Notes under the pieces: model-generated
The model's input: only the letters and a program-made list of their open reading frames with translations
What the model was told of the DNA's origin: nothing
The model's database searches: none
In this document: piece after piece, positions 2,196 to 32,929 of the stretch
Numbering within the stretch: the stretch's first letter is position 1
How the letters are laid out: each line of letters starts with the position of its first letter
DNA from: Myxococcales bacterium
GTDB taxonomy: Bacteria > Myxococcota_A > UBA9160 > SMWR01
Reading direction: 5' to 3'
Assembly: GCA_013215605.1 (NCBI GenBank)
Contig: JABSQW010000066.1
Location: forward strand, 1 to 40,082
DNA: 40,082 bases
Translations under genes and position numbers: made by a program

Positions 2196-4031
2196 CTACT
2201 CAACCGTTACGCTCTTCGCCAGATTCCTCGGCTGATCCACGTCGGTTCCCTTCAGACACGCGACGTGGTAGGCGAGTAGCTGGAGGGGGATCACGGCGAG
2301 GATCGACGTCAGGTAGGGGCCGAGGTCCGGGATGCGGATCACTTCGTTGGCCTTCTCGGCGATGGCGTCGTCGCCATGGGTGGCGAGGGCGATCACCTTG
2401 CCTTCGCGGGATCGCACCTGCTCGAGGTTCGACACGACCTTCTCGTAGACCTCGCTCTTGTTCGCGATGACCACGACGGGCATGTTCTCGTCGATGAGAG
2501 CGATGGGGCCGTGTTTCATTTCGCCCGCCGCGTAGCCCTCCGCGTGGATATAGGAGATCTCTTTGAGTTTGAGCGCTCCCTCCATCGCGATCGGGTACAT
2601 GATGCCGCGGCCGAGGAAGAGAAAATCGCTCGCGTGGAAGTACTTCTGCGCGATGCCGTGTACCTGTTCGTCGAGCTGGATGGTCTGCTCGACGAGACGC
2701 GGCAGGCGCATCAGCTCGGAGAGCCGAACGCGCATCTCGTCGCGGTCGACGCGGCCGCGAACGAACCCAATCTTCAACGCCATGAGGTAGAGAGCGACGA
2801 TCTGCGTGGTGAACGCCTTCGTCGACGCGACGCCGATCTCGGGACCCGCGTGCGTGTAGAGGACGTCGTCGCTCTCACGGGCGATGGTCGCCTCGCGGAC
2901 GTTGCAGATCGCAATGACGCGCGAAGAGTTTTCCTTGGCCTCGCGTAGAGCGGCCAGGGTGTCCGCCGTCTCGCCCGATTGCGACACGGGGATCATCAGG
3001 CAGTGCTCGTTGAGAATGGGCTTGCGGTAGCGAAACTCGCTCGCCAGATCGACCTCGGCGGGGATGCCGGCGATCTGTTCGAACAGGTACTTGCCCACCA
3101 TGCACGCGTAGCTGGCGGTGCCGCAGGCCACGAGGTAGATGCGCTGAATCTGATCCAGCGCCTCGGGCGACAAGTCGATCCCGTTCAGATCGATGTCGGC
3201 CTCCTCTTCGAGGACGCGCGTACCGATCGTGTCCATGATCGCGCGTGGCTGCTCGAAGATCTCCTTCTGCATGAAGCGGTCGTAGCCGCCCTTCTCCGCC
3301 GAGACCGGATCCCACTGAATGGGCTTCGGCTCGCGCTCGACGGGACGAGCGTTCTCGTCGACGATGGTAACGCCGTCTTCGGTGAGCACGGCGAAGTCGC
3401 CATCCTCGAGAAAGACCATACGGCGTGTGTACGGAAGGATGGCGGGAATGTCGCTCGCCATGAACATCTGCTTCTCGCCGATTCCAAGGATGATCGGGCT
3501 GCCGCCGTTCTTTGCCACCACCATGTGGTCGGGCGATTCGCGGCAGAGCGCGCCGAAGGCGTAGGAACCGTCTAGCCGCGCAGTGGCGCTGCGCGCGGCA
3601 GTGAGCAGGTCCTGTCCGCTCTGCACGTAGCCATCGATCAAGTGCGCGATCAGCTCGGTGTCGGTCTCGGACTCGATCGTGCGGCCGCTCTCCTCCAGCT
3701 CGTGACGGATCTCACGATAGTTTTCGATGATGCCGTTGTGCACGATCACGACGGAACCCGCGCGGTGCGGGTGGGCGTTCACCTTCGACGGTTTGCCGTG
3801 CGTGGCCCAGCGCGTGTGGCCAATGCCTACGTGGCCCGCGATGGGGCGATCGCGCAGGACGCTCTCGAGGTTGACGAGCTTGCCGAGAGCCCGACGCACG
3901 ACGATGTCATCGTCGTCGAGGACTGCCACGCCCGCGGAGTCGTAACCGCGGTACTCCAGGCGGCTCAGGCCGTCGATCAGCACGTCCATGGCCCGGTGCT
4001 CGCGCCCGATGTATCCGACGATTCCGCACAT
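2196..4031 (-). CDS. glmS: Glutamine--fructose-6-phosphate aminotransferase (isomerizing)
   Basis: MCGIVGYIG N-terminal Cys glutaminase, two SIS domains, C-terminal DQPRNLAKSVTVE. Confidence 0.98.
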   Translation of the reverse strand: MCGIVGYIGREHRAMDVLIDGLSRLEYRGYDSAGVAVLDDDDIVVRRALGKLVNLESVLRDRPIAGHVGIGHTRWATHGKPSKVNAHPHRAGSVVIVHNGIIENYREIRHELEESGRTIESETDTELIAHLIDGYVQSGQDLLTAARSATARLDGSYAFGALCRESPDHMVVAKNGGSPIILGIGEKQMFMASDIPAILPYTRRMVFLEDGDFAVLTEDGVTIVDENARPVEREPKPIQWDPVSAEKGGYDRFMQKEIFEQPRAIMDTIGTRVLEEEADIDLNGIDLSPEALDQIQRIYLVACGTASYACMVGKYLFEQIAGIPAEVDLASEFRYRKPILNEHCLMIPVSQSGETADTLAALREAKENSSRVIAICNVREATIARESDDVLYTHAGPEIGVASTKAFTTQIVALYLMALKIGFVRGRVDRDEMRVRLSELMRLPRLVEQTIQLDEQVHGIAQKYFHASDFLFLGRGIMYPIAMEGALKLKEISYIHAEGYAAGEMKHGPIALIDENMPVVVIANKSEVYEKVVSNLEQVRSREGKVIALATHGDDAIAEKANEVIRIPDLGPYLTSILAVIPLQLLAYHVACLKGTDVDQPRNLAKSVTVE

Positions 4032-4055: not shown

Positions 4056-5612
4056 CTAGCGCCCGCGATTCGGCGCCCGGCGTGACGCCGAGGTTTTTAC
4101 CGAGCGTTTACCAGATGACTTCGGCGGAGACTTCTTGGTCGTCTTCGACCGACTCGAAGTCTTCGACTTGCGCTTCTTGGCGGGCGTTCGTTTCTTGCGA
4201 GACGGCGCCCGAGAACTCTTCTTCTTCGCCGGGGTCCGCTTCTTCGGAGCCGACCTCTCGTCCGCAGGCGCGGGCTTCGGCGCTCCGCCCTTCGGCGGAC
4301 GGCGAGCCACCCACCCCTCGACGTTGCGCTGGCGGGCCCGTGCCACGGCGAGGGACTGCTCGGGGACGTCGTGCGTCACGGTCGAGCCGGCCGCCACGAA
4401 GCTGTCGGGCTCGAGGGTGACCGGTGCAATCAAATTCGAGTTGCAGCCCACGAAGGCGCGGTCGCCGACGGTGGTTCGGTGCTTCGCGATACCGTCGTAG
4501 TTCACGACGATCGAGCCACAGCCAAAGCTCACCCCTTCGCCGACGTCGGCGTCGCCGACGTAGCTCAGGTGGTCGACCTTGCAGCCATCGCCGAGGTTCG
4601 AGTTCTTCACCTCGACGAAGTTCCCGATACGCACGTTGCGCCCGAGCACGCAATCGGGCCGAAGATGCGCGGACGGACCGATCACCGTGCCGTCGCTCAG
4701 TACGCTCGATTCGATGTGACAGTTCGGCTTGATGTGGACGCCTTCGCCGAGTTTCGACTCGCCCTGAATCACGCAGCCGGGCTCGATCAGCGTGTCGGGC
4801 CCGATCTCCACGGCGGCGTCGATGTAGGTGTTCGCGGGATCGACGAGCGTCACTCCTTCTCGCATGTGGCGCTCGTTGATGCGCTTGCGGACCGCTTCGG
4901 CCGCGATCGCGAGCTCGACGCGCGTATTGACGCCGAGCGCCTCGCTGGCGTCGTCGAGCGTCACGGCCTCTACGCGATGCCCCTCGGCCACTGCCATCTC
5001 GACGATCGTCGTGAGGTAGGTCTCGCCCTGCGCGTTGTCGTTGCCCACGCGCGCGAGCGTGCTCCACAGCAGGTCCCAGCTGACCAGATACACGCCGGTG
5101 TTCCGCTCTTCGATGGTGAGCTCTTCCGGCGTGGCGTCCGTGGCTTCTACGATGCGCGCGACACCGCCGTGCTCGTCGCGCATGACGATACCCGGCACGT
5201 CGATCGGCGCGGTCAACACGACCAGCTCGGCGCGCCGCTTCTCCTTGAAGTCGACCATGCGCAGGAGCGTCTCGGGTCGCAGCAGGGGCGTGTCGCCGTA
5301 GAGAATCAGCACGTCGCCGGAGAAGCCGGACAGGGCTTTGCGGGCCGACAGCACCGCGTGGCCGGTCCCCTTCTGCTCGAGCTGGTCGACGAACGTGGCG
5401 CGGCCGCCGAATTCTTCGCGCACCTCGCCAGCGCCGGGGCCCACCACGACAACCAGCCGATCCGGGTCGAGAGCCTCGGCGGCGGCGAGCGGGTAGGAGA
5501 GCATGGGGCGGCCGGCAATCTGGTGAAGGACCTTGGCGGTCTTGGATCTCATTCGAGTGCCTTGGCCGGCAGCGAGGACGAGGACAGCGATCTGAACGGA
5601 GTGGACAGCCAT
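4056..5612 (-). CDS. glmU: Bifunctional UDP-GlcNAc pyrophosphorylase / glucosamine-1-phosphate N-acetyltransferase with an extra Lys/Arg-rich C-terminal tail
   Basis: VLAAGQGTRMRSKTAKVLH, YGDTPLL, left-handed beta-helix hexapeptide repeats, VNYDGIAKHRTTVGDRAFVG. About 75-residue basic tail after VEGWVARRP. Confidence 0.97.
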   Translation of the reverse strand: MAVHSVQIAVLVLAAGQGTRMRSKTAKVLHQIAGRPMLSYPLAAAEALDPDRLVVVVGPGAGEVREEFGGRATFVDQLEQKGTGHAVLSARKALSGFSGDVLILYGDTPLLRPETLLRMVDFKEKRRAELVVLTAPIDVPGIVMRDEHGGVARIVEATDATPEELTIEERNTGVYLVSWDLLWSTLARVGNDNAQGETYLTTIVEMAVAEGHRVEAVTLDDASEALGVNTRVELAIAAEAVRKRINERHMREGVTLVDPANTYIDAAVEIGPDTLIEPGCVIQGESKLGEGVHIKPNCHIESSVLSDGTVIGPSAHLRPDCVLGRNVRIGNFVEVKNSNLGDGCKVDHLSYVGDADVGEGVSFGCGSIVVNYDGIAKHRTTVGDRAFVGCNSNLIAPVTLEPDSFVAAGSTVTHDVPEQSLAVARARQRNVEGWVARRPPKGGAPKPAPADERSAPKKRTPAKKKSSRAPSRKKRTPAKKRKSKTSSRSKTTKKSPPKSSGKRSVKTSASRRAPNRGR

Positions 5613-29825: not shown

Positions 29826-29963
29826 CGCCACGTCGCGCGCCCACGCCGCTCTGGCAACGCCGACCTCCCCGCTATCCTCCGGCCGATTGCACCACGCGCC
29901 TTGACCCGGTCACGGGCGTGTGGACCATCGCGGCGTCCGACCATGGCGAAGGGGGGTCCTCAC

Positions 29964-31670
29964 ATGGCCGCATCGAAGGCAAACTCTCGCAGTTCTCGTT
30001 CGGGAGCTTCGAGGGCGCGAGGGAAACGTCCCAAGGTGGCGAAAGCACCGAAACGCAAGGTCGCCAAGACCAAGCGCAGCCGAGCCAAAGCCAAGCCGGC
30101 GGCGCGCGCGCAGAAGAGTGCGAGTGAGCTCGCCAAGGGCCAGCGCGACATCTCGGTGTCCGAGTTCTTCGCGAAGAACCGACACCTGCTCGGCTTCGAC
30201 AATCCCTCAAAAGCACTGCTGACGACGGTCAAGGAGGGTGTCGACAACGCTCTGGACGCCTGTGAAGAGGCGGGCATCCTGCCCAACGTGCGGGTCGAGA
30301 TCGTCCAGATCTCCGAGACGCGCTTCCGAATCGCCATCGAGGACAACGGCCCCGGGGTCGTAAATAGCCAGGTGCCGAAGATCTTCGGCAGCCTGCTCTA
30401 CGGCTCGAAGTTCCACCGGCTCCGCCAGAGCCGCGGACAGCAGGGCATCGGCATCAGCGCCGCGGGGATGTACGGATTGCTCACCACGGGAAAGCCGATC
30501 GTCGTCACCACGCGCACGGGCCCCCGGAAGGACACCCGCAAGCTCGAAGTCGTGATCGACACGAAGCGCAACGAGCCGAAGGTGAAACGCGACGAAGTCG
30601 TCAAGTGGGATGTGAAGCACGGCACGCGTGTCGAGATCGAACTCGAAGGCAACTACCGCGGCGGTCAGCACTCGGTCGACGCCTACATCCGACAGATTTC
30701 ACTCGCGAATCCCCACGCCGAGATCACCTACGTCCCGCCGAAGGCCGAGGAGTTCGGTGCGGAGCACGTCTTTCCGCGCGTCAGCAAGGAAATTCCGCCC
30801 GAAACGGCGGAGATCAAGCCTCACCCGTACGGCGTCGAACTCGGCGTACTCATGCAGATGTTTCGCGATACCCAGGCGCGGAACGTGCGGTCGTGCCTCA
30901 CGGGCGACTTCAGCCGCGTGTCACAGCGCACTGCCACGGAGATCTGTGATTCGGCGGGCGTCGCCACGTCTCGCCGCCCGAGTGAGATCAGTCGCGAGAG
31001 CGCAGAGAAGATCCACGCCGCGATTCAGCGCGCGAAGATCATGGCGCCGCCGATGGACTGCATCGCGCCCATCGGCGAAACGTTGATCGAGCGCGCGCTC
31101 CGGGCGGAGGTCGACGCAGACTTCTACACCTCGGTGACGCGCCGCGCTACGGTCTACCGCGGCAATCCCTTCCTCGTCGAGGTCGGACTCGCCTACGGGG
31201 GCGATATGTCGTCGGAGGACAGCATCTCGCTGTATCGGTACGCGAACCGGGTCCCCCTCCAGTACCAGCAGGGCGCGTGCGCGGTGACGAAGGCGGTGAT
31301 CGCCACCGACTGGAAGAGCTATCAGATGCAACAGCCGCGTGGCGCGCTTCCGGTCGGGCCGATGCTCGCGATGGTTCACATTGCAAGTGTCTGGGTGCCG
31401 TTTACATCGGAGAGCAAGGAGGCCATCGCCCACTACCCGGAGATCATCAAGGAGATCCGCCTCGGCCTCCAGGAGTGCGGGCGCCGCGTCGCAAGCCACA
31501 TCCGCAAGCGACGCCGCGAGTCCGACGAGGCGAAGAAGCGCGCCTACATCGAGAAGTACATTCCGCAGGTTGCCGTCGGTCTTCAGCAGATCCTCGGCTT
31601 GAACGACGCCCACACGAAGAAGATCGTCAGAAACCTGACAGACGTGCTCGAGAAGAGCCGGAAGATGTGA
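29964..31670 (+). CDS. top6B: DNA topoisomerase VI subunit B with basic N-terminal tail
   Basis: KEGVDNALDACEEAGI, AIEDNGPGVV, RGQQGIGISAAGMYGLLTTGKP (GHKL Bergerat fold), YANRVPLQYQQGACAVTKAV, MVHIASVWVPFTSESKEAIA transducer motif. Confidence 0.95.
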   Translation: MAASKANSRSSRSGASRARGKRPKVAKAPKRKVAKTKRSRAKAKPAARAQKSASELAKGQRDISVSEFFAKNRHLLGFDNPSKALLTTVKEGVDNALDACEEAGILPNVRVEIVQISETRFRIAIEDNGPGVVNSQVPKIFGSLLYGSKFHRLRQSRGQQGIGISAAGMYGLLTTGKPIVVTTRTGPRKDTRKLEVVIDTKRNEPKVKRDEVVKWDVKHGTRVEIELEGNYRGGQHSVDAYIRQISLANPHAEITYVPPKAEEFGAEHVFPRVSKEIPPETAEIKPHPYGVELGVLMQMFRDTQARNVRSCLTGDFSRVSQRTATEICDSAGVATSRRPSEISRESAEKIHAAIQRAKIMAPPMDCIAPIGETLIERALRAEVDADFYTSVTRRATVYRGNPFLVEVGLAYGGDMSSEDSISLYRYANRVPLQYQQGACAVTKAVIATDWKSYQMQQPRGALPVGPMLAMVHIASVWVPFTSESKEAIAHYPEIIKEIRLGLQECGRRVASHIRKRRRESDEAKKRAYIEKYIPQVAVGLQQILGLNDAHTKKIVRNLTDVLEKSRKM

Positions 31671-31672
31671 CC

Positions 31673-32929
31673 ATGGCAGCACGTGCAAAGACCAAGAACA
31701 AAAAATCCGCGCGCAAGGCCCCGGCGAAGAAGAAGGCGGCTGCGAAGAAGACGGGCAAGAAAACCGCTCGCAAGAAGGCCTCGAAGCGGAAGGCTCCGCG
31801 CGCGAGCAGCGAGGCCGCGAAGCGCAACGCACGCATGGACAGCCTCACGATCGACCTGATCTGCAACACCGCGAATGACGTCCACAAAAACATCCAGAAG
31901 AAGAGAAAGCCCGACCTCGCGTTCCCGATCCGTTCGCTGAAGAACGTCTCCTACTCGACGAAGCGCGGGTACTTCGAGATCGGCAAGGCGAAGAAGGTGC
32001 GCACGCTCACCGTCAACACGGTCAAGAGCTTCGCGCAGACGCTGAGGATGATGGGCCTCTCGAAGGAGCTCGTGGAATCGAGGGACTTCGCGACGAAACG
32101 AGACGCCTACTACCAGAGCAAGAACTGGGAGGAAGCGCGCTTCGACGAGCAGAACGAGTCCGACTCGGTGATGGACGACATCGAGGCGATGTTCTCGATG
32201 CGGGGGGTCTCACGCGAGCAGCTGCGCTTCGTCCCCGACGAGCACGGTGGCGCGGTAGCCGGGCAGTTGATCGTGCTCGACCCCGATCGCGAGACGGGCG
32301 AGGTCGAGCGCATCGATTGCACGCGCTTTGGCTCCGGCGCTTACTCGATCCCGTCGAGCGTCGAGCAGCTGTCGTTCGAGACGAACGCTAAGTTCATCCT
32401 CGCGATCGAAACGGGCGGCGTGTTCCAGCGACTGCAGAGCCACAAGTTCTGGCAGACTTCGAACTGCATCCTCATATCGATGGCGGGCGTGCCGACGCGG
32501 GCGACGCGGCGCTTCATCCGCAAGCTCTCGGACGAGTCCAAGATTCCCGTCTACGCCTTCGTCGACTGCGACCCGTACGGGATCTCGAACATCTACCGGA
32601 CGCTCAAGGTGGGATCGGGGAATGCCGCGCACCTCTCGCAGTTCTTCTGCGTCCCCCAGGCGAGCTTTCTCGGCGTGACGCCGCAGGACATCATCGACTA
32701 CGATTTGCCCACGCACCCGCTGCACGACGTCGACGTCAAGCGTGCGAAGGACGCCCTCAAGAACGATCCCTTCTTCAAGGCCCACAAGCCGTGGCAGAAG
32801 GCGATCGAGCAGCTGCTCAAGATGGGCGTGCGCGCGGAGCAGCAGGCACTCGCGAAATGGGGTCTGAATTACGTGATCGAAGAATACCTGCCGAAGAAGC
32901 TCTCCCAGAGAAAGGACTTCCTCCCGTAG
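31673..32929 (+). CDS. top6A: DNA topoisomerase VI subunit A (Spo11-like) with Lys-rich N-terminal tail
   Basis: Catalytic Tyr context TKRDAYYQSKNW, Toprim ETGGVFQRL and VYAFVDCDPYGISNIYRTLKVGS; immediately downstream of top6B. Confidence 0.95.
   Translation: MAARAKTKNKKSARKAPAKKKAAAKKTGKKTARKKASKRKAPRASSEAAKRNARMDSLTIDLICNTANDVHKNIQKKRKPDLAFPIRSLKNVSYSTKRGYFEIGKAKKVRTLTVNTVKSFAQTLRMMGLSKELVESRDFATKRDAYYQSKNWEEARFDEQNESDSVMDDIEAMFSMRGVSREQLRFVPDEHGGAVAGQLIVLDPDRETGEVERIDCTRFGSGAYSIPSSVEQLSFETNAKFILAIETGGVFQRLQSHKFWQTSNCILISMAGVPTRATRRFIRKLSDESKIPVYAFVDCDPYGISNIYRTLKVGSGNAAHLSQFFCVPQASFLGVTPQDIIDYDLPTHPLHDVDVKRAKDALKNDPFFKAHKPWQKAIEQLLKMGVRAEQQALAKWGLNYVIEEYLPKKLSQRKDFLP

Follow-up and report, generated by a model that had tools for sequence, protein, structure and literature searches.

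A long basic C-terminal tail on a bacterial GlmU: candidate polyanion tether or tolerated repeat growth

Results and discussion

The glmU gene in the window (the whole stretch of DNA analysed, 40,082 nucleotides) encodes an enzyme whose conserved core is followed by a genuine, in-frame, polycationic C-terminal extension. GlmU is a trimer, and the reading we favour, with a probability of roughly 0.55, is that a basic cap at its C-terminus was convergently expanded into a non-specific electrostatic tether for polyanions, with a partner that we infer. Long basic tails are usually taken as the mark of nucleic-acid-binding proteins. At least three gains on an essential sugar-nucleotide enzyme, with tail-less sister species at hand, provide a clean natural comparison between enzyme relocation and tolerated repeat growth, and it is these repeated independent gains that give the tail its moderate interest. 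A low-complexity basic tail should not, taken alone, count as evidence of DNA binding.

An in-frame polycationic extension

The first-pass annotation had reported a Lys/Ser/Arg-rich extension past the normal end of GlmU (..VEGWVARRP), and this extension proved to be real. The core ends at residue 439, and the 79 residues that follow include 19 K, 12 R, 1 D and 1 E (31 K+R against 2 D+E), for a net charge of +29. The span given there, 4059-4310, takes in the tail but also the last residues of the core, and the quoted string omits the first 15 residues of the tail (PKGGAPKPAPADERS). The proposed H1-like composition with repeated KKRTPAKK was upheld: the 8-mer occurs twice, so long a repeat being present in only 4 of 20,000 shuffled tail sequences, and there are three [ST]P-x-K motifs (TPAK, TPAK and SPPK). 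The tail is also predicted to be disordered, with AlphaFold2 pLDDT values below 50 across most of residues 454-514. By its composition, its two KKRTPAKK copies and its low pLDDT, it qualifies as an H1-like tail of the lysine-repeat type (disordered, K/P/A-rich, with PAKK motifs). The last 60 residues of GlmU carry a charge of +26, the highest of 680 C-termini (mean -0.4, SD 4.7) in a 1.04-Mb sample covering 15% of the genome, in which genes of 150 aa or more were called by a simple codon-position score. The top rank of GlmU among these C-termini and the rarity of its repeat in shuffles place the tail beyond chance expectation.

Table 1. Features of the window discussed in the text.
Feature	Position	Strand	Basis or content
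glmU CDS (bifunctional GlcNAc-1-P uridyltransferase / GlcN-1-P acetyltransferase), 518 aa	4056..5612	-	ORF, NCBIfam equivalogs, PDB matches
Conserved GlmU core, residues 1-439, ending ..EGWVARRP	4296..5612	-	1hm0 alignment ends at residue 439
Basic C-terminal tail of GlmU, residues 440-518, 79 aa	4059..4295	-	Net +29, predicted disordered
First KKRTPAKK copy	4221..4244	-	AAG AAG CGG ACC CCG GCG AAG AAG
Second KKRTPAKK copy	4173..4196	-	AAG AAA CGA ACG CCC GCC AAG AAG
glmS, directly downstream of glmU, 24-nt gap	2196..4031	-	ORF; pairing and order conserved in relatives
Topoisomerase VI subunit B, basic N-terminal tail	about 29943-30140	+
Topoisomerase VI subunit A, basic N-terminal tail	31673-about 31830	+

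The core itself matches the equivalog profiles NF010934 (533 bits, cut-off 450) and TIGR01173 (495 bits, cut-off 367) up to about residue 437, as well as solved GlmU structures in the PDB (from 1.4e-111). It has a net charge of -16 and was modelled by AlphaFold2, from a 34-sequence alignment, with pLDDT of about 92-99 over most of its length. The LAAGxGTRM motif is present, and hexapeptide repeats together with the confident model identify the C-terminal domain as a left-handed beta-helix. Nine positions (K27, D107, R318, K336, H348, Y351, N371, Y372 and K377) are invariant among the 34 aligned GlmUs, and we take their roles, by analogy with E. coli GlmU, to be catalytic or near-catalytic. Judged from these residues, which are in place in both domains, the enzyme looks catalytically ordinary. 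It shares its two-domain core, catalytic residues and glmU-glmS pairing with the GlmUs of E. coli, S. pneumoniae (1hm0) and M. tuberculosis (3spt), but the tails of known GlmUs run from a few to about 40 residues, against 79 residues at +29 here. Around residues 290-303 the beta-helix is about 16-18 residues, or one coil, shorter than in Bacillus and Streptococcus GlmU; this reduction is common to the order of the window's genome and appears both in the aligned near relatives (L012-L015) and in a Rhodospirillales GlmU (L044). The genes flanking glmU are those expected from relatives, and an Rfam scan of the window returned no RNA element.

A frameshift or assembly error had been put forward as one circumstance that would undo the tail. 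In that case the true C-terminus would be either the acid-rich sequence of frame +2 (EGRSAEARACGREVGSEEADPGEEEE..) or no more than a short stub. The codon usage of the tail is slightly atypical (z -2.0) and does not tell the two frames apart: over 61 codons, z is -1.26 for frame +2 and -1.56 for the GlmU frame, a nearly equal fit to the genome. However, the tail of topoisomerase VI subunit B shows equal ambiguity despite being in frame with its enzyme, so the ambiguity is a property of K/S/T/P/A/R-rich coding and not a sign of error. The repeat is more telling. Five bases separate the two KKRTPAKK copies, each of them a synonymous third-position change when read in the GlmU frame (p = 0.0013 that five random differences would all fall on third positions), whereas frame +2 would give EEADPGEE versus QETNARQE. 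Basic tails in the GlmU frame are also found in the nearest relatives, and the gap from the glmU stop to the glmS start lies within the range measured in other members of the family (10-51 nt). Because the repeat copies diverge synonymously, and because gene order and glmU-glmS spacing match those of relatives, a frameshift appears very unlikely as the source of the tail; together with the relatives' in-frame basic tails, this largely rules out the proposed error.

Distribution and growth of GlmU tails

The first-pass annotation had proposed checking homologues for the tail, and the long form turned out to be absent from the closest relatives compared, which belong to other genera of the family. 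In these family GlmUs, at 60-70% identity, the tails span 3-30 aa with net charges from +11 to -2, some being near neutral or slightly acidic. Across the order (59 other genomes in 63 rows, four genomes appearing twice), tail length and sequence vary widely, from 3 to 93 aa and with some acidic examples. The median tail is 12 aa with a net charge of +2; 73% are net positive and 19% net negative. Only two tails from these 59 genomes, both in another family, resemble that of the window, namely those of G051 (93 aa, +31) and G061 (85 aa, +25), and G053, from the same genus as G061, has a tail of 26 aa and -3. On a maximum-likelihood tree of 52 GlmU cores, the three long basic tails require three changes, and in no tree of 200 bootstrap replicates do they fall into one clade. 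The tree therefore indicates that long basic GlmU tails were gained independently at least three times in the order. Outside the phylum, GlmU also has a basic tail in two MAGs, one from Rhodospirillales (51 aa, +23) and one from Acidobacteria (34 aa, +14).

Known GlmUs share with that of the window a short basic or disordered C-terminal end. The E. coli protein ends in GWRRPVKKK, hence in a short basic stub (VKKK), and the M. tuberculosis enzyme, a trimer, has an extended C-terminus that is unresolved beyond residue 472 (PMC2675579). Given the E. coli stub and the 73% of order tails that are net positive, a basic tail on GlmU is less odd than had been stated. A short, variable, mostly basic stub that was lengthened repeatedly would be the parsimonious account of these sequences. 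Among the papers searched for GlmU C-terminal extensions or tails, none dealt with a basic tail.

Two other GlmU genes point to a likely route of lengthening. The tail in a sister species (L137) contains an exact 24-nt tandem repeat encoding PPAKPGRK copies, and that of L263 contains an (AAGCCG)n run. Because these are exact repeats at the DNA level, slippage of GC-rich codon repeats is a likely way for GlmU tails to have grown. The starting point for such repeats (AAG/CCG/GCG/CGG codons) would have been the short basic stub that GlmU C-termini commonly carry. As an observation in its own right, both cases represent minisatellite growth inside an essential gene. In the window, the KKRTPAKK copies have diverged in DNA and are identical in protein; the peptide motif has therefore outlived its DNA duplication. 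This single pair of octapeptides, on which any statement about selection rests, offers modest evidence suggesting that the tail is older and its peptide under some selection.

Possible function of the tail

As a tether, the tail would act through the geometry of the trimer. Going by known GlmU structures, three tails (about +87 in total) would extend outward where the beta-helix ends on its C-terminal side, and together they could bind polyanions by avidity. This would bias the location of GlmU and leave catalysis as before. The partner would most likely be RNA or the nucleoid, ranked first because of the composition of the tail, and less likely an anionic membrane lipid. In HupB a comparable tail stabilises DNA binding (PMC5676037), and in AlgP one positions granules (PMC9239181). 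Like the lysine-repeat C-terminal tails of actinobacterial HupB, TopA and Ku (PAKK/KAAK), the GlmU tail is disordered, H1-like and K/P/A-rich with PAKK motifs. However, those carriers bind DNA, whereas this one is a sugar-nucleotide enzyme with no known nucleic-acid substrate and a tail richer in Ser/Thr; it also differs from that type in not being conserved among close relatives. We consider it rather unlikely that, in a further step, the GlmUs of several lineages were independently tethered to nucleic acid, so that the three tails of the trimer keep UDP-GlcNAc synthesis on RNA or the nucleoid, perhaps under regulation through the [ST]PxK sites, and couple the supply of cell-wall precursors to growth.

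What speaks against a tether of any kind is that close relatives do without a long tail and that only two of the 59 other genomes of the order have one, a count that near-neutral drift could also produce. The same facts feed the serious rival, in which the tail has no function: slippage of GC-rich codon repeats lengthened the C-terminal stub of an extension-tolerant enzyme, and the result was kept as harmless. The high variability of GlmU tails in the order, the exact DNA repeats in L137 and L263, and sister species without a long tail all fit this explanation, which we regard as possible but on balance doubtful. The repeats in the window are old in DNA yet identical in protein, with five of five differences synonymous, and a similar basic composition arose repeatedly, although K/P/A/R would also be favoured, in some codon frames, by the slippage of GC-rich repeats alone.

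Two further rivals each name a specific partner for the tail. Binding of the tails to anionic phospholipids would keep UDP-GlcNAc synthesis at the inner membrane, close to where wall and lipid A are made, a suggestion that has pathway logic and a polybasic, predicted disordered tail in its favour. But the tail offers no hydrophobic residues to help anchoring, with a single Val among its 79 residues, and its composition is that of nucleic-acid-binding tails, which makes a membrane tether quite unlikely. Docking on polyphosphate granules through a Lys-rich tail, as for AlgP in Pseudomonas, seems extremely improbable, even though Lys-rich disordered regions of bacteria do bind polyphosphate (PMC9239181, PMC12345225). 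A search restricted to PPK1 (PF02503) found none in the 90%-complete genome and found it in 7 of 14 control genomes, and polyphosphate is less likely because of this result. GlmU also goes unmentioned in the main text of the paper on E. coli polyphosphate binders (PMC12345225). The KPAA-repeat tails of AlgP and PhaF in Pseudomonas are likewise bacterial, H1-like and disordered, and serve there in granule positioning, but the C-terminal domain of AlgP has 195 aa with regular KPAA repeats, against just two KKRTPAKK copies in the GlmU tail.

Basic tails elsewhere in the genome

The scan for similar tails suggested by the first-pass annotation, run on the 1.04-Mb sample, gave few matches above the K-rich threshold. 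Among them were the C-terminal tail of a topoisomerase IV A-type subunit (L096), a PMT_2 glycosyltransferase (L097) and a short H1-like ORF (L175). Basic tails are thus confined to few proteins and are no general habit of this proteome, since GlmU, at +26, tops 680 C-termini that average -0.4. Other basic-tailed proteins of the same genome include an RF-1-domain protein, topoisomerase VI A and B (both N-terminal) and the topoisomerase IV A-type subunit already mentioned. A search of the genome with the tail only revealed no convincing second copy (best other E 0.06), and plasmids searched with it at the nucleotide level gave no match. The DNA gyrase/topoisomerase IV A-type protein with the Lys-rich C-terminal tail (L096, 8252-10255) occurs in the same genome as topoisomerase VI. 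The short ORF (L175, 3368-3694, minus strand) contains MARKAAKKKAAKKKVAKKKPVARKRSASKKRGSG.. and has no Pfam match; its product would be a small, H1-like protein.

A match between the GlmU tail and topoisomerase VI tails 25 kb away had also been proposed. Such tails do exist, about 26-27 kb away, and share a K/R-rich composition of disordered type with that of GlmU. They are, however, N-terminal, Ala-rich and carried by a DNA enzyme, whereas the GlmU tail is C-terminal and Ser/Pro/Thr-rich. The accompanying idea of a lineage-wide use of basic tails holds for topoisomerase VI A, whose Lys-rich N-terminal tail is present in 17 of 17 family genomes and is a lineage trait; it fails for the long GlmU tail, family tails having 3-30 aa. 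The window encodes a complete topoisomerase VI (29901-32929, B then A) in a bacterium, and subunit A is found in all 17 family genomes at 80-85% identity to the window's. A bacterial topoisomerase VI conserved across a family merits separate attention.
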